DNA of 64,000 bases. Source: Pseudobdellovibrionaceae bacterium (GTDB taxonomy: Bacteria; Bdellovibrionota; Bdellovibrionia; Bdellovibrionales; UBA1609). The stretch covers positions 62,001 to 126,000 of the forward strand of contig JAMLIO010000001.1 of assembly GCA_023954155.1 (NCBI GenBank), given 5' to 3'. The number at the start of each line of letters is the position of its first letter. Within the stretch, counting starts at the first letter, position 1. Of the stretch, positions 20,731-62,767 are shown piece by piece. Below the pieces are notes generated by a model, which was given only the letters and a program-made list of their open reading frames with translations, was not told the DNA's origin and ran no database searches. The position numbers and the translations under genes were made by a program.

Positions 20731-20881
20731 GGGCTTGGTTTTGGGCTGGAATATTTCTGTATATATACTCAAAATGCTCAGACAGTGACGTTTGGCACAG
20801 TTTTGCGTTCGCAAAACAGCGCCAAGCCGAACTCGCATTTCGACCATATATACAGAAATATTCCAGCCCAAGACCAAGTCC
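20731..20881. repeat. Palindromic element copy A (shared core, locus-specific arms)
   Basis: The inverted arms 20731-20766 and 20846-20881 pair over 36 bp, with only two mismatches, both G-T. The 79 bp core (20767-20845) begins ACTCAAAATGCTCAG, ends CTCGCATTTCGACC and has an inner hairpin TTTTGC-GTTC-GCAAAA. Outside the variable inner hairpin, the core is identical to copy B. The arms share nothing with those of copies B and C. The right arm ends 27 bp from the stop of the endonuclease-like gene at 20908. Confidence 0.85.
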
Positions 20882-20907: not shown

Positions 20908-21969
20908 CTATTGGATGATGATATAAATGGGTAGGTGGCCTGAGCCAGCTAGAGGCAAAACTCTTCCATATACGGCGTTCATATTTTGGGCAAAGGCGTG
21001 GTCTATGGCTGAGGATTGGAACATGCTTGAGCTGACGAAGGTGTCTGATGTGTCTGCAATAAGACTTACATAATTAGCATTAAACATCTTATAAACATAG
21101 CCATCTACTTTATAGAAGTTTTTAGGACTGTTGAGATCGCCGATGATAAGTAATGAATCGCTTTCTGCGGTGTAGGTCATGTTTTTTTCTATAACTTGTT
21201 TACCCTGTTGAGCATTAGGGTTTTGAGTGCCGCTATCTATTTCAAAGAAGGTGGAAAACATTCCGTTTTCTGAAAAAAAGTTTCGCCAAGGGTTATAAAG
21301 ATGAAGAGGGTTTAAATAAAACTCACGAAATTTATTTTTTACTTTTAATAACAGATAGCTTCTATTCTTCTTGTCGTTTGTTTTATTTTTTTCATCTGCG
21401 TACAAAACTTCTTGTATGACGGTTGATAAAGAGTAATCGCTTAAAACCACAATCCCATTACGTTCATTGGTTTTACCACTTGAAGTTTTAAACTCTGGAA
21501 TATTTCTTACCAAATGATGGTTGTATTTGTACTTTCCAAAAATAGTTTTAGCAAATTCAGGGCTCAAATAATAAGGACAGTACTCACCTAAAATTAAGAG
21601 GTTAGGACGCATATCAGAATTGATTATATCCAAAATATTTTTCTCTAAATTGGATTTATAAGATTTTTGACCTCTGATCTTTGTAGCACTGGTTGCACAA
21701 TCTATATTCCACCACATCACACGCACGGCCTCTGGATCTACAGTGGCAGGCGGTAAATCCCTTGCGGTTAAGGCATAGGAGAGGTCCAGTCGATCAAATT
21801 GTTCTTTAACTCGAATTTCATCGGCGGACAGAGTCTCCTCTGTTCCAAAGATAAAGGCGCTCTGTACAAGCTCGCCATCTTCAGACTGAGACTGTGCAAA
21901 GGCCTGCCCACTTGGTGACAGACCCAACATAAGAAAAACACTATAAAATAAGATAGCTAAATAATTCAT
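20908..21969 (-). CDS. Exported endonuclease/exonuclease/phosphatase-like protein
   Basis: The protein has 353 residues with a signal peptide (about residues 1-25). The mature part follows the EEP fold order: VMWWNIDCA near the start, ILGEYCPYY (with the metal-binding Glu), LNPLHLYNP, LLIIGDLNSP (Asp-x-Asn) and the C-terminal GSGHLPIYI (His). Relatives hydrolyse DNA, phosphoinositides or other phosphodiesters. Being exported, it would act in the periplasm or outside, for instance on nucleic acid. It is the last gene of the exported-protein operon, starting 2 nt after the coiled-coil gene stop. Palindrome A follows it. Confidence 0.75.
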   Translation of the reverse strand: MNYLAILFYSVFLMLGLSPSGQAFAQSQSEDGELVQSAFIFGTEETLSADEIRVKEQFDRLDLSYALTARDLPPATVDPEAVRVMWWNIDCATSATKIRGQKSYKSNLEKNILDIINSDMRPNLLILGEYCPYYLSPEFAKTIFGKYKYNHHLVRNIPEFKTSSGKTNERNGIVVLSDYSLSTVIQEVLYADEKNKTNDKKNRSYLLLKVKNKFREFYLNPLHLYNPWRNFFSENGMFSTFFEIDSGTQNPNAQQGKQVIEKNMTYTAESDSLLIIGDLNSPKNFYKVDGYVYKMFNANYVSLIADTSDTFVSSSMFQSSAIDHAFAQNMNAVYGRVLPLAGSGHLPIYIIIQ

Positions 21970-41314: not shown

Positions 41315-41680
41315 ATGAACAGTTCTATTATCTTTAAACATCTTTTACCTCAATTGGACTTTGACCGCGAAGTCTTTTGGGTTGTGGGTCTTAACGCCAG
41401 CAAAGAGATATTCTGTTCACGCCAACTCTTTAGCGGCACAGTGAATAAATGCGTTGTATATCCACGAGAGATTTTTAGATACGCCCTCCTTCAAAACGCC
41501 GACGAGATCGCCATCGCCCACACCCACACAACTACAGACATTTCCCCTTCAAAAAAAGATTTAGAACTTACGGCACGTTTACGCATGCAAAGCGAATGGC
41601 TAGACATCAAAATCGTAGATCATCTGATCATCTCAAAAAACCACGACTACTTTTCCTTCTTCGACAAAGGCCTCCTCTAG
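41315..41680 (+). CDS. RadC-type JAB-domain protein
   Basis: The protein has 121 residues, corresponding to the JAB/MPN-like domain of RadC without the N-terminal helix-hairpin-helix. The metal-binding pattern is visible: His69-x-His71 in AHTHTTTDISPSKKD with the downstream Ser and Asp, then LELTARL and VDHLIIS. The usual RadC motif is HNHPSGD; here the Asn/Pro positions differ. RadC JAB proteins are probably metal-dependent nucleases or peptidases, often linked to mobile DNA, but their role is unsettled. Palindrome B begins 12 bp after the stop. Confidence 0.8.
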   Translation: MNSSIIFKHLLPQLDFDREVFWVVGLNASKEIFCSRQLFSGTVNKCVVYPREIFRYALLQNADEIAIAHTHTTTDISPSKKDLELTARLRMQSEWLDIKIVDHLIISKNHDYFSFFDKGLL

Positions 41681-41692
41681 CTGGCCTCACTA

Positions 41693-41855
41693 CCTCTGTC
41701 CGAGAAATATAAGATTTAAAATTTAAATAGAGTTACTCAAAATGCTCAGACAGTGACGTTTGGCATGCCTTTGCATTCGCAAAAGCACGCCAAGCCGAAC
41801 TCGCATTTCGACCAACTCTATTTAAATTTTAAATCTTATATTTCTCGGACAGAGG
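41693..41855. repeat. Palindromic element copy B (shared core, locus-specific arms)
   Basis: Perfect 42 bp inverted arms (41693-41734 and 41814-41855) surround a 79 bp core (41735-41813). The core begins ACTCAAAATGCTCAGACAG and ends AACTCGCATTTCGACC; its inner hairpin is CTTTGC-ATTC-GCAAAAG. It lies in the convergent gap between the RadC-like gene and the minus-strand gene ending at 41870. Copies B and C have the same orientation and bracket that gene. Confidence 0.92.
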
Positions 41856-41869
41856 CAGAGAGGCGGCGC

Positions 41870-42418
41870 TTAATTTTCTTGGGCGCGTTTGGCGGAGATG
41901 ATTTCTAGATTGTCGTTGATTTCTACTATCCAGCCATCTTTAAGTGCATTCTTTTTATAAGCTTCTATGTATTCTCTTTTTGAGCGGGCGGCGTCTTCGG
42001 CGGCGCGTTTGCGGTCTGCCATTTCGACTCTGAGTTTTTCTTCAATAGACAGTGAAGAGAAATCTTGAGTTCCTGTTTCGCCTAGGTCTTCATCATAGAT
42101 GCCCACGCTTCCACTTCCCGTGTAAGGCTTTTCGGGTTCCCAATTTTTGGCTTTATTTTTAAAGCTTTCTGTCATCTTCACATTGCGTTCACTGATCATC
42201 AGGTCACGCATACGCTTTTCCATATCTACGGAACGCATGTGCTGATTGACGGCATCATCAATCTTCTTTTCTATTCTACGTATATCTACATAATTTTCAG
42301 GATCCGCAGGCTTTTCTTTTCCCAGCTCGCTAAAAACAAAAAGGAATCCAAAAAATATCATCACAAATAGGGTCGACCCTAAAAATATCTGTGTCATTTT
42401 GTCTTTATCTAAGCCCAT
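41870..42418 (-). CDS. Single-pass membrane protein of unknown function
   Basis: The protein has 182 residues. One membrane helix (about residues 9-29, IFLGSTLFVMIFFGFLFVF) is followed by a charged, helical cytoplasmic or periplasmic tail rich in Arg, Lys, Glu and Met (DMEKRMRDLMISERN, RKRAAEDAARSKREY). The C-terminal 25 residues (KDGWIVEINDNLEIISAK) look like a small beta unit. I recognise no family. It is the last gene of the glpD-mreB-sigma-like run, but 300 bp containing palindrome C separate it from the gene before. It lies exactly between palindromes B and C. Confidence 0.6.
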   Translation of the reverse strand: MGLDKDKMTQIFLGSTLFVMIFFGFLFVFSELGKEKPADPENYVDIRRIEKKIDDAVNQHMRSVDMEKRMRDLMISERNVKMTESFKNKAKNWEPEKPYTGSGSVGIYDEDLGETGTQDFSSLSIEEKLRVEMADRKRAAEDAARSKREYIEAYKKNALKDGWIVEINDNLEIISAKRAQEN

Positions 42419-42515: not shown

Positions 42516-42685
42516 CCCACTTTAGATTGGGTTTATGCTTTAATTTTTTTTGGATAGAGTTACTCAAAATGCTCAGACATGACGTTTGGCATGACTTTGC
42601 GTTCGCAAAGACATGCCAAGCCGAACTCGCATTTCGACCAACTCTATCCAAAAAAAATTAAAGCATAAACCCAATCTAAAGTGGG
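42516..42685. repeat. Palindromic element copy C (shared core, locus-specific arms)
   Basis: Perfect 46 bp inverted arms (42516-42561 and 42640-42685) surround a 78 bp core (42562-42639). The core differs from A and B by loss of one G (GACA-TGACG) and by its inner hairpin, TTGGCATG-A-CTTTGC-GTTC with an exact partner except for one A-A mismatch. The right constant part is identical in all three copies. It lies between the 133-residue and 182-residue protein genes. Confidence 0.92.
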
Positions 42686-42718: not shown

Positions 42719-43120
42719 TTAAAAAAATTCTGAGAGCCAAGATTTGAGTTCTTGGAGTCTTGGGGTGAAGTACTCCGTGAGATCTTCGTAACAAAGATAA
42801 AGGACGAAGAATAATGCCATAAAAAAAATGGTCCCGACTATAGTCTTGAACTTGGATTTGAGTTTGTACCATCTTTGTTTGTTTTTTTTCGTGAAGATGG
42901 AGTCATCGTATTCGATTTGGATTTCGGAGATGGCGTTGAAGTATTCAAAGGCTAGTAGCACCGCTCCCACTTTTTCGCGGGCATCAATGTTGTTGTCCAT
43001 GTGATGTTTCATGTCGCGATAGGTGAAAGAAGACATATCTTTGTTGGCAAAGTCAAAGAGCCTTTGCTCAAACATAAAGTCAGAAATCTCTTTGGGAGGG
43101 GGGGTAAGTCTTTCTTTCAA
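42719..43120 (-). CDS. Small membrane protein, possible anti-sigma factor
   Basis: The protein has 133 residues. The N-terminal 85 residues are soluble, helical and charged. One membrane helix follows (FKTIVGTIFFMALFFVLYLC) and then a short tail. The gene overlaps the stop of the sigma-like gene by 4 nt (ATGA), which indicates translational coupling. A small soluble-domain-plus-TM protein coupled to a sigma-like gene is the usual arrangement of an anti-sigma factor, but no zinc-binding anti-sigma motif (HxxxCxxC) is present. The function is therefore an inference from context. Confidence 0.6.
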   Translation of the reverse strand: MKERLTPPPKEISDFMFEQRLFDFANKDMSSFTYRDMKHHMDNNIDAREKVGAVLLAFEYFNAISEIQIEYDDSIFTKKNKQRWYKLKSKFKTIVGTIFFMALFFVLYLCYEDLTEYFTPRLQELKSWLSEFF

Positions 43121-52831: not shown

Positions 52832-52962
52832 AATCCTTTGTACTAAACCGCTCGCGTAAGCGCTCTGTCAATGGTAATTTTAGCTTGCCCTACGTCCCAA
52901 TTAAACACATTTTGAACTCTAGACCTAGTCGATTTTCGTAGAATTTGGTATAGTGATTATAT

Positions 52963-53138
52963 TCTGTAGGACTCAAAGAATAAGTAAACCCTACAAGAAA
53001 TAGATTCGGGAACTGTCCCTGATTGCGGTGTGCAAGCTTGTGGAGGCCCCAAAGCCAGATAACGAGAAGCCTAAAGCAATTATCATGGTGCCCACTTTAA
53101 ATTCTGGGTTTACTTTCTTGTTAGAGTCCCACAGATTT
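52963..53138 (+). ncRNA. ssrS: 6S RNA
   Basis: About 176 nt folding into one long rod. The 5' part TCTGTAGGACTCAAAG..TAAACCC pairs with the 3' part GGGTTTA..TTAGAGTCCCACAGA. The central region shows the conserved 6S features: CGGGAACTGTCCCTGA on the 5' side (E. coli: GGGCCAGTCCCCTGA) and CGAGAAGCCTAAAGC on the 3' side (E. coli: CGAGAAGCCTTAAAA). A run of seven T residues follows at once as terminator, and a TATAGT -10 box lies at 52949-52954. 6S RNA mimics an open promoter and sequesters the housekeeping RNA polymerase in stationary phase. Ends are accurate to within a few nucleotides. Confidence 0.88.
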
Positions 53139-53532
53139 TTTTATTTAAAGCCTACTCACTCTTTATAGTTCCATTAGAAATATTCGAAACCTATTACAAT
53201 GCTAGCCTTAGCTTTGTGTTCACATTGAGTTCCACATATCTATGCTTGGGCATAGATGCCACTCTCTCGTCCTAGTCTTGTGTTCACATTGGCCACCCGC
53301 CATACCTGCGCCCCGCGTTCTTAAAAGAATTTGCGTCTACAATAAGAGTCGCAAAAATAATCTGTCTCATTTTGAGATGGTATTAAACTTGTTTACACTT
53401 GCTATTAGATTTGTGGATTTATTTCTACTGGCTTGCTTCTATCGGCGTTTATTTTTTTCTCAAGGTGACACATTTTGGCACTGTCCTTGCTTCATTGGGG
53501 TATGAATGTGCAATTTCAGGGGGAAAAAGCAT
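53139..53532. other. Intergenic region with a 14 bp direct repeat flanking a hairpin
   Basis: TTGTGTTCACATTG occurs at 53214-53227 and again at 53278-53291. Between them lies a perfect hairpin ATCTATGC-TTGG-GCATAGAT (53238-53257). The short frame across this region has no coding character. The right end must contain the promoter of the exported coiled-coil gene, but I see no strong consensus match. Confidence 0.5.
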
Positions 53533-57896: not shown

Positions 57897-60766
57897 AAAA
57901 CATTGAGCTAAAGGGAGTCAAACAAAACAATCTTAAGAATATTGATGTCTCTATTCCCATTGGCTCTTTTACTGTTATCTGTGGCCCTAGTGGTTCTGGT
58001 AAAAGTTCTTTGGCCTTTCAAACTTTATTTGCCGAAGGACAACGTCGCTACATTGAATCTCTGTCAAACTACTCCAAACAATTTATCAACAAAGCCCCCA
58101 AGCCCGACCTGCTCTCTGTAGAAAACATCCCACCTGCTATCGCGCTTCAACAAAAAAATGGAGTCCGTAATTCACGCTCTACTGTAGGTACAAGTACGGA
58201 AATCACAGATTATTTACGACTGCTTTTCTCAAAAGTAGGACAAACGTTTTGTCCTGACCACAATATCAGACTTAAAACAGTAAGCCCCATTGATGCTGCC
58301 GAGGACGTCATTAAGGCTTTTCCTCAGTCTCGCGCTTACATTCTTTTCCCTATTTATCAAAAATTGGTCGCCTATAAAGACAAAGAACTTTTAAAACATT
58401 TGATACAGTTAGGGTTTTTACGAGGAGCTGCTTTTGATCAAGAAACCTGGCAAAAAGGCACTTCCTTTTATAAAACTTCAGAAATTGATGTCTTTGATCT
58501 AAATACAAGTGAAGCTTTAGACTACATCAAGGAAGATTTCTTTATTGTCGTAGACCGACTGGTGATCGAAGAGGATGATCTTGGGCGTATTTTTGATTCC
58601 TTTCAACAAGCTTATGACGCCTATTTAAGTTGCCACAGCACAGAACTCCATGGTGAGGCTTTTGTTTGGACTACAGACAATATTTTGCAGCGCTATACAG
58701 AACAGAACGCCTGCCCGATCTGTGATTTTAAATTTCCACCTCTGTCTCCTCAGCTCTTTAGTTTTAATAGTGCTCTAGGTGCATGTGAAAGCTGTAGTGG
58801 GTTTGGCAATCGACTTGAAGTTGATGAACACAAAGTGATTCCTTTTCCACAGAAAACTCTTATGGAAGGAGCTATTGCCCCTTTTGCCATGCCCTCTGGA
58901 AGAGCCGACTTTAGAAAGCTTATTAAATTTTGCGAAGCCGAAGGGATTGATGTTCATACCCCATGGGTAAAAATGAAACCCTTAGATAAACAAAAAGTCT
59001 GGGAAGGACACAAAAAGTGGTTTGGGGTTTTAGGTTTATTCGAGTACCTGGAAACCAAAAAGTATAAAATGCACGTGCGGGTTTTTCTGGCTCGTTATAA
59101 AAGCTCTTTCACCTGTAAGACCTGTCATGGTTCTCGCCTCAAAACTGAGGTGGATGACATCACCGTTCAAGGTAAAAACATCACCCAGTATTGCAATATG
59201 CCCCTGAGCGAGTTACTGGACGCTTTTTATAATTTCAAATGGAGTGAGCACGATCAAATTCTTTGCAAAGAAGTTTTAGGGCAACTTAAATTACGTTTAG
59301 AATATTTAAACAAAGTCGGCCTTGGGTACCTTACGTTAGATCGCTTAACTCGCACTCTTTCTGGAGGGGAATACCAAAGAATGAACTTGGCTCATCAATT
59401 GGGCATGGGTTTGTCACAAACTTTATTTATCTTAGACGAACCTACTATTGGTTTGCACTCTCGTGATAACGATCGGCTGATTGAAATCCTTAAAGGTCTA
59501 CACGAGCTGGGCAATACCGTTGTCGTTGTGGAACACGATCACGATGTCATTCAAAACAGCGAACGCGTGATCGAATTAGGGCCTGGTTCTGGGCACAAAG
59601 GCGGAGAGATCATTTATTCTGGTGAAACCAAAAACTTCTTAGCTTCTAATAGTCTTACCGCTCATTATCTTAAAACTTTGCAAAGCTGGACGCCACCTCG
59701 TGAAGTTCGACCCGTCAGCCGAAAAGATTCTTTCATCACCCTTGAAGGTGCAGTTGGAAATAATTTAAAAAATGTCACTTTACAAATTCCTCTAAAAAAA
59801 CTCATTACAGTGACAGGCGTGAGTGGCTCTGGAAAATCGAGCCTTATCACAGGAACCCTATATCCAGCATTGGCACAGAAGCTCAATATCAGTGCCGAGC
59901 CACCACTTCCCTTTAAAAAATTAGTGGGTGAACATCTTTTGCGTAACGTTTTTTTAATGGACCAAAATGCTGTTGGAAAAACTCAACGTTCCAATCCCGC
60001 TACATATCTTAAAATTTATGATGTTATTCGCAGTCTTTACGCCGACACCAAAGAAAGCAAATTCCAAGGTTTTACCGCTGGCACCTTCAGCTTGAATGTT
60101 GATGGGGGACGTTGCCCCACCTGTAAAGGCTTAGGTCACGAGCTGGTGGATATGATTTTTATGGATGACATTTTAATTCCCTGCGAAGACTGTAAGGGTA
60201 AACGCTTTCGTCAAGAAGTGTTGAAAGTGAAGTTTAACAACAAAAATATTCATGAAGTTTTGGAAATGACAGCAGAAGAGGCTCTTAAGTTTTTTGTGGC
60301 CTATCAAGGTATACGAAAACCATTGAGTATTCTTAAAGAGGTGGGCTTAGAACACCTTAAATTGGGTCAAGCCCTTTCCACACTCAGTGGTGGTGAGATT
60401 CAAAGACTCAAATTAGCCAAACAATTTTTAACTTCTGAAGCCCACAACGCCTTATATATTCTGGATGAACCCACAACTGGTTTACATTTCAGAGAGATCG
60501 AACTTTTGCTTAAACTTTTACAAAAGCTTGTAGAAGGCGGTGCCACAGTGCTTCTTATTGAACATAATCTTGAGATTATAAAAAATTCAGACTGGGTCAT
60601 TGATATTGGCCCTGAGGCAGGATCAGGCGGCGGGAAGATCATTGCCGAAGGGACTCCTGTTGATATTGCCAAGAAAAAGACTTACACTGCCCGCTACTTA
60701 AAACAATATTTAAGCGGTGAACCCCTCTATGGATCAAAAGAAAATCAAGCTCCTTCACTTACTTAA
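57893..60766 (+). CDS. uvrA: Excinuclease ABC subunit A (UvrA)
   Basis: The protein has 957 residues with two ABC ATPase modules. Walker A motifs are GPSGSGKSS and GVSGSGKSS; signatures are LSGGEYQRM and LSGGEIQRL; Walker B/D-loop motifs are LDEPTIGLHSRDND and LDEPTTGLHFREIE. Two CxxC zinc modules are seen, one in CPICDFKF...CESC and one in CPTCKGLG...CEDC. Some first-module motifs differ from typical UvrA (IALQQKNGVRNSRSTVGT rather than the usual IEQKTTSRNPRSTVGT), so it could be a UvrA paralogue. UvrA recognises bulky DNA lesions with UvrB. It overlaps mrcA by 4 nt and the msbA-like gene by 38 nt. Confidence 0.9.
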   Translation: MKNIELKGVKQNNLKNIDVSIPIGSFTVICGPSGSGKSSLAFQTLFAEGQRRYIESLSNYSKQFINKAPKPDLLSVENIPPAIALQQKNGVRNSRSTVGTSTEITDYLRLLFSKVGQTFCPDHNIRLKTVSPIDAAEDVIKAFPQSRAYILFPIYQKLVAYKDKELLKHLIQLGFLRGAAFDQETWQKGTSFYKTSEIDVFDLNTSEALDYIKEDFFIVVDRLVIEEDDLGRIFDSFQQAYDAYLSCHSTELHGEAFVWTTDNILQRYTEQNACPICDFKFPPLSPQLFSFNSALGACESCSGFGNRLEVDEHKVIPFPQKTLMEGAIAPFAMPSGRADFRKLIKFCEAEGIDVHTPWVKMKPLDKQKVWEGHKKWFGVLGLFEYLETKKYKMHVRVFLARYKSSFTCKTCHGSRLKTEVDDITVQGKNITQYCNMPLSELLDAFYNFKWSEHDQILCKEVLGQLKLRLEYLNKVGLGYLTLDRLTRTLSGGEYQRMNLAHQLGMGLSQTLFILDEPTIGLHSRDNDRLIEILKGLHELGNTVVVVEHDHDVIQNSERVIELGPGSGHKGGEIIYSGETKNFLASNSLTAHYLKTLQSWTPPREVRPVSRKDSFITLEGAVGNNLKNVTLQIPLKKLITVTGVSGSGKSSLITGTLYPALAQKLNISAEPPLPFKKLVGEHLLRNVFLMDQNAVGKTQRSNPATYLKIYDVIRSLYADTKESKFQGFTAGTFSLNVDGGRCPTCKGLGHELVDMIFMDDILIPCEDCKGKRFRQEVLKVKFNNKNIHEVLEMTAEEALKFFVAYQGIRKPLSILKEVGLEHLKLGQALSTLSGGEIQRLKLAKQFLTSEAHNALYILDEPTTGLHFREIELLLKLLQKLVEGGATVLLIEHNLEIIKNSDWVIDIGPEAGSGGGKIIAEGTPVDIAKKKTYTARYLKQYLSGEPLYGSKENQAPSLT

Positions 60767-62555
60767 AAAAGATATTGCCCCTTATCTGGGAGGCTTTATC
60801 GCTTTGATTGTTGTGGGGCTGATCGCGGGGATCACAAAGTCCACTTTACCTTGGCTCACATCACGCTTGCTCACTTTATGGGAACGTCCCGAGGAACTTT
60901 CTACTTCTTTTCTTGAAGAAGCCTCACACCCTATTATCGTGGCCATTAGAGAGTTTGTGGCTCCACTTTATAACTACCTCTTTACAGGTGATGACCAGAT
61001 CATTCGGTTACCTCTGGTGATTCTTGCCTGTTATATTTTTTCAAACATTGCACGCTTCATTGTGTGCTCTCAAACCCGTCTTATCGCAGAAAAAATTTGC
61101 ATTGATCATCGCAAAAAACTTTTAAATCAATACTTACAGTCCCCGCTTTCTTATTTAGAACAGTTTAAATCTGGTTCAGGCGGGCTGATCAGCCGTATGC
61201 TCAATGACATCAACCAAATTTATAATGGTTTTACCAAAACCGCAGACCTTCTTAAAGAGCCCGTGGTGTGCCTGGGCTCCTTACTTTTTCTTTTATACGT
61301 GACAAGCCTTAAACAGATGGCCTTCCTTTTTGTTTTGTTAATCTTTGTCGCTGTATTTGTGGTCGCTCTTACTAAGTCCATCCGCAGAAACAGTCGTAGA
61401 AACCAAGAAAATTTAGAAGAAATCACAAGTACCTTAAAAGAAACTTTAGATGGCTCACGCATCATTCGTTCATTTAACCTTGAGGAAAAAATCAGAATAC
61501 GCTTCAAAAAGCAGGTCGATCAATTCTACAAATTCAGAAAAAAAATCACCCTCTTAGAAGAATCCAGTGGTCCAATCACGGAATCCTTCACCACTGTGAT
61601 TGTGGCTGCTGTTTTGATCACTGTGGGTCTACTCATTAAAAAAGGCGAAATGACTGTTGCCGAATTTATGGGCTCAGGCGTGGCTCTTGGACTTTTATTT
61701 GATTCGGCAAAGAAGACTCAAGACGCTATCATTCGTGTTCAACAAGGCTTAGTCGCTCGCGTACGATTGCAAGAGATTTTACTTGTTGGGGAAGAACACA
61801 TCTCTGATCCTCAAAATGTCATTGCCATGCCTACAGATTGGGACAGCATCAAGTTTAACAATATCAACTATAGCATTGGCGATCGTCATATTTTAAAAAA
61901 TATCAATCTGACTATTAAACGTGGTGAAACCGTAGCCTTAGTCGGTCCCAGTGGATCTGGAAAAACGTCTTTACTTAATCTTTTAGAACGATTTATCAGT
62001 CCTGATTCAGGCAGCATCCATATTGGAAACGCAGACATCACGGCAATTCCTTTACATGAACTACGAAGACATATCTCTTTAGTTTCCCAAGATGTCTTTT
62101 TATTTAGAGACACCTTAGAAGAAAACATCCGAGCCTCTATAGTCAACGCCACTCACGCTGATATCGAGGCCGCTGCCAAAGCCGCTAATGTTCATAGCTT
62201 TATTCAATCTTTACCCGATGGATACCAGACCTTAGCGGGAGACCGAGGACAAAGGCTCAGCGGTGGCGAAAAACAGCGCATCTCCATCGCTCGCGCTTTT
62301 TTAAAGAACGCCCCCATCCTTCTATTAGACGAAGCCACAAGCGCCTTAGACACCGACAATGAAGTCGAGGTCCAGAAGGGTCTACAGACCCTTATGCAAG
62401 ATAAAACGTGCTTTGTCGTCGCTCATAGGCTGTCCACCATCAGAAACGCTGATCGCATCATCGTCCTTAAAAACGGCGAAGTGGTTCAAACTGGAACACA
62501 CCAAGAACTCGCCGACCAACAAGGCGAATACCACCGCCTCCTTAATCTTCATTAA
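60729..62555 (+). CDS. msbA: MsbA-like lipid/multidrug ABC exporter (fused TM-ATPase)
   Basis: The protein has 608 residues from the ATG at 60729; an in-frame GTG at 60717 is possible. An N-terminal six-helix exporter domain is followed by an ATPase with Walker A GPSGSGKTS (about residue 410), Q-loop VSQDVFLF, signature LSGGEKQRISIARAF, Walker B ILLLDEATSALD and H-loop VAHRLSTIR. Half-transporters of this kind dimerise to flip lipid A-core or drugs; MsbA is the likeliest by length and context-free similarity. The start lies inside the 3' end of uvrA. The last 26 nt, including the stop, are duplicated in inverted orientation at 62742-62767 by palindrome D. Confidence 0.85.
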   Translation: MDQKKIKLLHLLKKDIAPYLGGFIALIVVGLIAGITKSTLPWLTSRLLTLWERPEELSTSFLEEASHPIIVAIREFVAPLYNYLFTGDDQIIRLPLVILACYIFSNIARFIVCSQTRLIAEKICIDHRKKLLNQYLQSPLSYLEQFKSGSGGLISRMLNDINQIYNGFTKTADLLKEPVVCLGSLLFLLYVTSLKQMAFLFVLLIFVAVFVVALTKSIRRNSRRNQENLEEITSTLKETLDGSRIIRSFNLEEKIRIRFKKQVDQFYKFRKKITLLEESSGPITESFTTVIVAAVLITVGLLIKKGEMTVAEFMGSGVALGLLFDSAKKTQDAIIRVQQGLVARVRLQEILLVGEEHISDPQNVIAMPTDWDSIKFNNINYSIGDRHILKNINLTIKRGETVALVGPSGSGKTSLLNLLERFISPDSGSIHIGNADITAIPLHELRRHISLVSQDVFLFRDTLEENIRASIVNATHADIEAAAKAANVHSFIQSLPDGYQTLAGDRGQRLSGGEKQRISIARAFLKNAPILLLDEATSALDTDNEVEVQKGLQTLMQDKTCFVVAHRLSTIRNADRIIVLKNGEVVQTGTHQELADQQGEYHRLLNLH

Positions 62556-62767
62556 CTTCTATCTAGGTTTTGAATGTAAATACCTCATCAAAACAGCCCT
62601 CCGAGGCGAGCAATGCGTATCCGACATGCGTTGGCCTGTGGGACTTTAGTCCCAGAGGTTAATGCATGCCGAAGACGCTTTGCACCCGAAGTCGGCTGGG
62701 CTGTTTTGATGAGGTATTTACATTCAAAACCTAGATAGAAGTTAACGAAAATTAAGGAGGCGGTGGT
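62530..62767. repeat. Palindromic element D (same architecture, different core)
   Basis: Inverted arms 62530-62599 and 62698-62767 match in 68 of 70 positions (mismatches at 62547/62750 and 62551/62746). The 98 bp core (62600-62697) is itself an imperfect inverted repeat that closes on GGGACT-TT-AGTCCC. The core is not that of copies A-C. The left arm begins inside the msbA-like coding sequence, so the right arm is an inverted copy of that gene's last codons and stop. Confidence 0.9.

Follow-up and report, generated by a model that had tools for sequence, protein, structure and literature searches.

Dispersed hairpin cores with private inverted arms form two families of small elements in Bdellovibrionales and may trigger template-switch copying of neighbouring DNA

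Results

Hairpin elements of the window

The window, a stretch of 64,000 nucleotides from a genome of the Bdellovibrionales, contains three copies (A, B and C) of one hairpin core, termed F1, and one copy of a second core, termed F2. Each core is enclosed by two arms that are inverted copies of one another, and the elements lie beside the following genes, whose positions here and below are simple ORF calls.

20734..20765, + strand: left arm of copy A
20766..20843, + strand: F1 core of copy A
20844..20878, - strand: right arm of copy A; the 3' end of gene 20908-21969 (- strand) lies 29 nt away
41684..41733, + strand: left arm of copy B, locus-specific, beginning 3 nt past the stop codon of gene 41315-41680
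41734..41811, + strand: F1 core of copy B, an imperfect hairpin with an asymmetric internal loop
41812..41864, - strand: right arm of copy B, an inverted copy of the left arm, ending 5 nt short of the stop of gene 41870-42418 (- strand)
42516..42561, + strand: left arm of copy C
42562..42637, + strand: F1 core of copy C
42638..42685, - strand: right arm of copy C, which pairs with its left counterpart at 46 of 46 positions; the 3' end of gene 42719-43120 (- strand) lies 33 nt away
62530..62599, + strand: left arm of the F2 element, holding the stop codon and the preceding 7 codons of the ABC exporter gene 60717-62555
62610..62691, + strand: F2 core, GAGCAATGCGTATCCGAC ... CCGAAGACGCTTTGCACCC
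62698..62767, - strand: right arm of the F2 element, an inverted copy in non-coding DNA with the exporter coding end included

An earlier note on this DNA had described copy B as a near-palindrome of 163 bp whose core recurs at 20767-20845 and 42562-42639 with other arms. The recurrence is confirmed on the sequence and the near-palindrome is real, although its paired region is slightly longer (41684-41864). Its arms pair at 48 of 50 positions, with 42 consecutive pairs in the fold, and enclose a core of 78-80 bp. Folded as RNA (181 nt), copy B reaches a predicted -100 kcal/mol (z = -17.6 against shuffles), and no shuffle folds as well. The F2 element (62530-62767) has a different core and the same architecture. 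The sole match of the window to Rfam at the gathering score is a 6S RNA gene at 52958-53141.

Two families of dispersed hairpin elements

The genome of the window (G000) comprises 2.44 Mb in 15 contigs and is 99% complete. A search of all of it, as the earlier note had proposed, returned 41 matches to the F1 core, representing about 38 distinct copies, and the F2 core has about 21 copies, each again with private arms. What recurs is an imperfectly paired hairpin core of which the asymmetric internal loop is conserved; some F2 copies have an additional inner stem that is long, variable and almost perfectly paired. Near-perfect inverted arms of 28-106 bp surround nearly every intact copy in G000. 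A 280 kb sample of this genome, made up of the window and fetched loci, holds 59 long inverted repeats with an F1 or F2 core, and the sole other long inverted repeat is the inner stem of one F2 copy. Within that sample only the 64 kb window is free of selection, and each of the four long inverted repeats found there is an F1 or F2 element.

With covariance models, F1 was detected in 21 of 141 genomes of Bdellovibrionales and F2 in 10. Across 84,980 GTDB species, true elements with the exact F2 pattern are confined to this order; matches in other taxa sit in sequence without arms and are attributed to chance. Viral contigs gave no match to the two patterns. Rfam assigned the elements to no known RNA family, returning sub-threshold matches only, nearly all to microRNA models, and no description of such elements was found in the open-access literature, which was the part of the literature covered. 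F1 and F2 are two order-wide families of small dispersed hairpin elements of Bdellovibrionales.

Arms are private to each locus

When 32 arms were searched across the whole of G000, each gave two matches, in inverted orientation, at its own element, accounting for 64 of the 66 matches; the other two belong to copies near contig ends. The arms are therefore specific to their copy, as the earlier note had held. Copy A and two further copies (L027 and L028) have identical cores of 78 bp and unrelated arms and, across G000, arm similarity between copies does not rise with core similarity. What copies do share outside the core is the inner 6-8 bp of the F1 arms, and likewise the inner part of the F2 arms. 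In three copies on contigs C2, C9 and C5 (L010, L014 and L036, respectively) the two arms are mismatched and one arm of each matches an arm of another element, reflecting either recombination between cores or misassembly.

Pairing within an element is close to complete. Arms are perfect in 17 of 33 F1 copies in G000, and left and right arms mismatch at 2.4% of positions, while 11.7% of pairs in the inner stem of the core are non-Watson-Crick. The mismatches are scattered along the arms and divide about equally between G.T (17) and A.C (15), which gives no indication of selection for RNA wobble pairing. Many arm pairs have changed on both sides. Read inward, the arms are T-rich; a C-poor composition is strong in the F1 arms of G000 and was rejected as a general signature. 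No target-site duplication was detected, direct matches at the outer boundaries being like those of shuffles (1.51 against 1.45), with no copy at 5 nt or more.

Arms contain the ends of neighbouring genes

At about 15 loci an arm enters the 3' end of the neighbouring gene by up to 41 nt, and the inverted copy of that gene end lies on the opposite side of the core. The longest overlap places 41 nt of a SerA-like gene inside an arm. The exporter gene of the window ends in YHRLLNL, which aligns to the ends of solved P-glycoprotein-type exporters, and at another locus the arm holds the terminal four codons of CutA; the end of this protein can be aligned to solved CutA chains. Because the arms hold gene 3' ends, conserved C-termini among them, host DNA has been copied in inverted form. 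These loci demonstrate local inverted copying of neighbouring DNA, and at the exporter and CutA loci the gene was likely the template and the other arm the copy.

Copies in G000 mostly lie where the 3' end of a gene faces the element, often between convergent genes, with a median of 7 nt from the arm end to the stop codon of the facing gene (the nearer gene being taken in convergent pairs). The earlier claim that all copies lie just beyond the 3' end of a gene holds for the three F1 copies of the window and for most others, not for all. Among relatives, 39 of 73 elements have a gene 3' end within 60 nt, and two copies in G091 lie at the 3' ends of tRNAs. Between convergent genes the length of the arms tracks how far away the stop codon is (P from 0.03 to 0.002 in permutations that re-choose the nearer gene), suggesting that coding sequence sets a limit. 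At co-directional loci arm length is independent of that distance (r = 0.17), and ribosome-limited copying, in which copying would proceed until a stop codon, was rejected on this independence.

The position and stability of the elements make it likely that they form bidirectional 3' RNA hairpins. Their placement at gene 3' ends fits termination, and a pattern scan saw no terminator-like site inside the element. The commonest mismatch in the inner stem of the core is A.C on the + strand, which would read as G.U on the other strand; this is a weak hint as to which strand might act as RNA.

Elements and element-free sites in relatives

In the relatives that were read, the internal loop is the conserved part and the arms are specific to a locus or to a lineage. 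The arms of G029 can be aligned between copies and vary in concert within imperfect outer repeats, and G091 has four copies with similar arms. Since arms are common to copies in these two genomes, it is also possible for arms to move together with the core or to become homogenised at a later stage. The earlier note had named genome-wide sharing of arms as a finding that would speak against its reading, and such sharing is absent from G000 and present in G029 and G091. The other refuting result it named, an element-free orthologous site that already holds both arms, did not come up either, the element-free sites that were read being those of relatives outside the genus of the window.

Several other arrangements were observed. 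The F1 cores of G029 (L171-L189) lie inside repeats of about 200-220 bp with outer TATACCGATCCGGTTTGAATTTT ends, and the related G042 has more than 40 core matches in 1.4 Mb. Rods at L194, L195, L197 (G140) and L203 (G131) contain the F1 internal-loop motif twice, nested and in opposite orientation. Elements also occur as inverted pairs 130-340 bp apart in G007 (C101, C35, C83), G118 (L198, L110) and G130 (L200). An autonomous version with a gene between paired copies was considered and rejected, as the translations of genes between pairs do not read as mobile-element-like. G053 also has a different palindrome, GTGCCAGGCCGTGTTTACGGAC, which is perfect, has a loop of 7 nt and lies at about 1388-1440 of L215, behind a gene orthologous to the L200 locus, and its GTGCCAGGCC is also found at the 3' end of rpoD in G131.

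Orthologues in the genus g15 are too diverged for a comparison of sites. In another genus, g33, which is not that of the window, the 3' end of rpoD (named from its translated end) carries an F1 element in G053 and none in G133, G086, G131, G130 and G078. Neither arm is present at the element-free site, so the question raised by the earlier note of which arm is ancestral receives the answer that neither appears to be at this locus. The spacer between the rpoD stop codon and the terminator is about 27-31 nt in three relatives and about 55 nt in G131, and is lost in G078. G053 keeps a spacer of about 28 nt and the terminator beyond its element. Given relatives with neither arm and a native-length spacer and terminator in G053, both arms look like added DNA from the sequence comparison, although non-coding divergence and spacer variation leave doubt. 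At a second locus (G118 L110) more than 500 nt with two palindromes separate genes that in relatives overlap or have a spacer of 5-8 nt, and the arms are unlike the gene ends. The rpoD and L110 loci do not support copying of the flank at the moment of insertion.

Discussion

Our analysis describes a conserved hairpin core that is dispersed through genomes of Bdellovibrionales and framed at each locus by its own inverted arms. We put at about even the chance that the core triggers hairpin-primed template-switch (snap-back) synthesis, with copies probably surviving as 3' RNA hairpins. DNA synthesis passing the core would allow the new strand to fold back on the core hairpin and to copy its own flank, which would thereby appear a second time, inverted, across the core. 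Such copying may occur at or soon after the arrival of the core and may recur, and recurrent copying would keep the arms perfect and could lengthen them into the end of the neighbouring gene. Because copies lie at gene 3' ends, often between convergent genes, the elements probably persist as 3' RNA hairpins of great stability that can serve transcripts from either direction. Mobility of the core, the timing of arm copying and polymerase fold-back as its cause are what we infer from these patterns. That template switching can create and repair perfect hairpin stems is documented (PMC8794818). Its involvement here is favoured by private arms, identical cores with unrelated arms and coding ends within arms; by arms that are better paired than the core stem, show no wobble preference and lack target-site duplication; and by the presence of the core in nearly all long inverted repeats and the closeness of arms to stop codons. 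Against it count the rpoD and L110 sites, the arms common to copies in G029 and G091, and the fact that no trans-acting enzyme was identified. The snap-back reading of the earlier note accordingly stands as to the common core, the private arms and the inverted host coding DNA, but its proposal that insertion itself makes the arms gains no support from the rpoD relatives, which have neither arm, or from the shared arms of G029 and G091.

Alternatively, the whole palindrome of arms and core may insert behind genes, the arms then diverging rapidly in concert while the core is conserved or homogenised, a reading we regard as the main rival and as less likely. Here template switching or selection would keep the arms paired and gene conversion would homogenise the cores. 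Whole-palindrome insertion performs better than core-triggered copying at the rpoD site of G053, where both arms look new, and in G029, where arms are alignable, vary in concert and have outer ends conserved between copies; the common arms of G091 and the shared inner parts of the F1 (6-8 bp) and F2 arms also fit. It performs worse on the identical 78-bp cores with unrelated arms, which would require near-total turnover of the arms with the core unchanged. It is also opposed by local gene ends inside arms and by the finding that no searched arm has a relative elsewhere in G000, bar the two copies at contig ends.

It appears improbable that the arms are simply those of ordinary 3' RNA hairpins or of bidirectional terminators in which compensatory substitutions, under selection, preserve the pairing. 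The location at gene 3' ends, the many two-sided changes and the terminator-like T-richness of arms read inward would all be expected, but stems reach lengths of up to 106 bp and intermediates are almost absent, G.U is not preferred, arms are better paired than the conserved core stem and contain copied coding sequence, and no terminator-like site emerged from the pattern scan. Insertion driven by a reverse transcriptase (RT), in which a nick would prime cDNA synthesis on a core RNA and the cDNA would then fold back and prime its own second strand over the flank, would account for a core with an inverted flank, and G000 does have one RT gene, of the type VI retron class. We consider this very improbable: nothing visible connects the retron with the elements, and an RT is not required, since none was detected in the element-bearing genomes G007 and G042. 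The retron RT of G000 is encoded beside its own HTH gene (L082, G000:C2:213961-214521). Snap-back chimeras arising in assembly or amplification could explain why several contigs end in or near a core, a few copies there having mismatched arms. Such an artefact is scarcely credible for elements with intact flanking genes that recur across the assemblies of many studies, the single-contig genome G053 among them, while chance pattern matches in other taxa lack arms.

Among known systems, the REP/REPIN sequences associated with RAYT (TnpA-REP, a Y1 transposase) are similarly short, dispersed and mostly extragenic hairpins in many copies, sometimes in inverted pairs, with a DNA hairpin as the likely active form (PMC3116915). 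The inverted element pairs of G007, G118 and G130 are REPIN-like. In REP/REPIN the palindromes are common to copies, whereas the F1 and F2 arms of 28-106 bp are unique to each locus and only the core is common. No match to the Y1 (RAYT) transposase family PF01797 was found in G000, by a search that was positive in five known control genomes. MITE, Correia/NEMIS and ERIC sequences resemble F1 and F2 in being small, dispersed, palindromic and devoid of coding capacity. The version in G029 has terminal-repeat-like outer ends as well, but copies in G000 have neither common terminal inverted repeats nor target-site duplications.

Hairpins made by template switching share with our elements a reverse-complement copy of adjacent DNA, a perfect stem formed in one event and an unchanged loop (PMC8794818), and reverse-complement copying of adjacent DNA is likewise described for quasipalindrome correction in E. 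coli (PMC7202029). Such cases are scattered single mutations, whereas here one conserved core accompanies the inverted copy at dozens of places per genome and order-wide. Copying of pre-existing neighbouring DNA into an arm, by which template switching is recognised, is seen at the conserved coding ends and not at the rpoD site. Long perfect inverted repeats that reach coding sequence also occur in mitochondrial genes of Nematomorpha (PMC6649704); these lie inside organelle genes, and the abstract of that report describes no common core family.

Small bacterial repeats usually carry their own ends, and a conserved core with private mirror-image arms is unlike known bacterial repeat families. 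The elements may even represent mobile elements of a new class, in which the core alone moves and every insertion copies the flank of its target afresh, in inverted form, by hairpin-primed synthesis, although we hold this stronger proposition to be rather doubtful. If the arms do arise at insertion, the elements would join their target in a manner new for mobile sequences. These proposals are testable, given how many copies several lineages carry. The combination of a core with private perfect arms ties dispersed repeats to template-switch synthesis, and the elements offer a natural repeated experiment in how long perfect hairpins arise and stay perfect, a question in the evolution of RNA genes.
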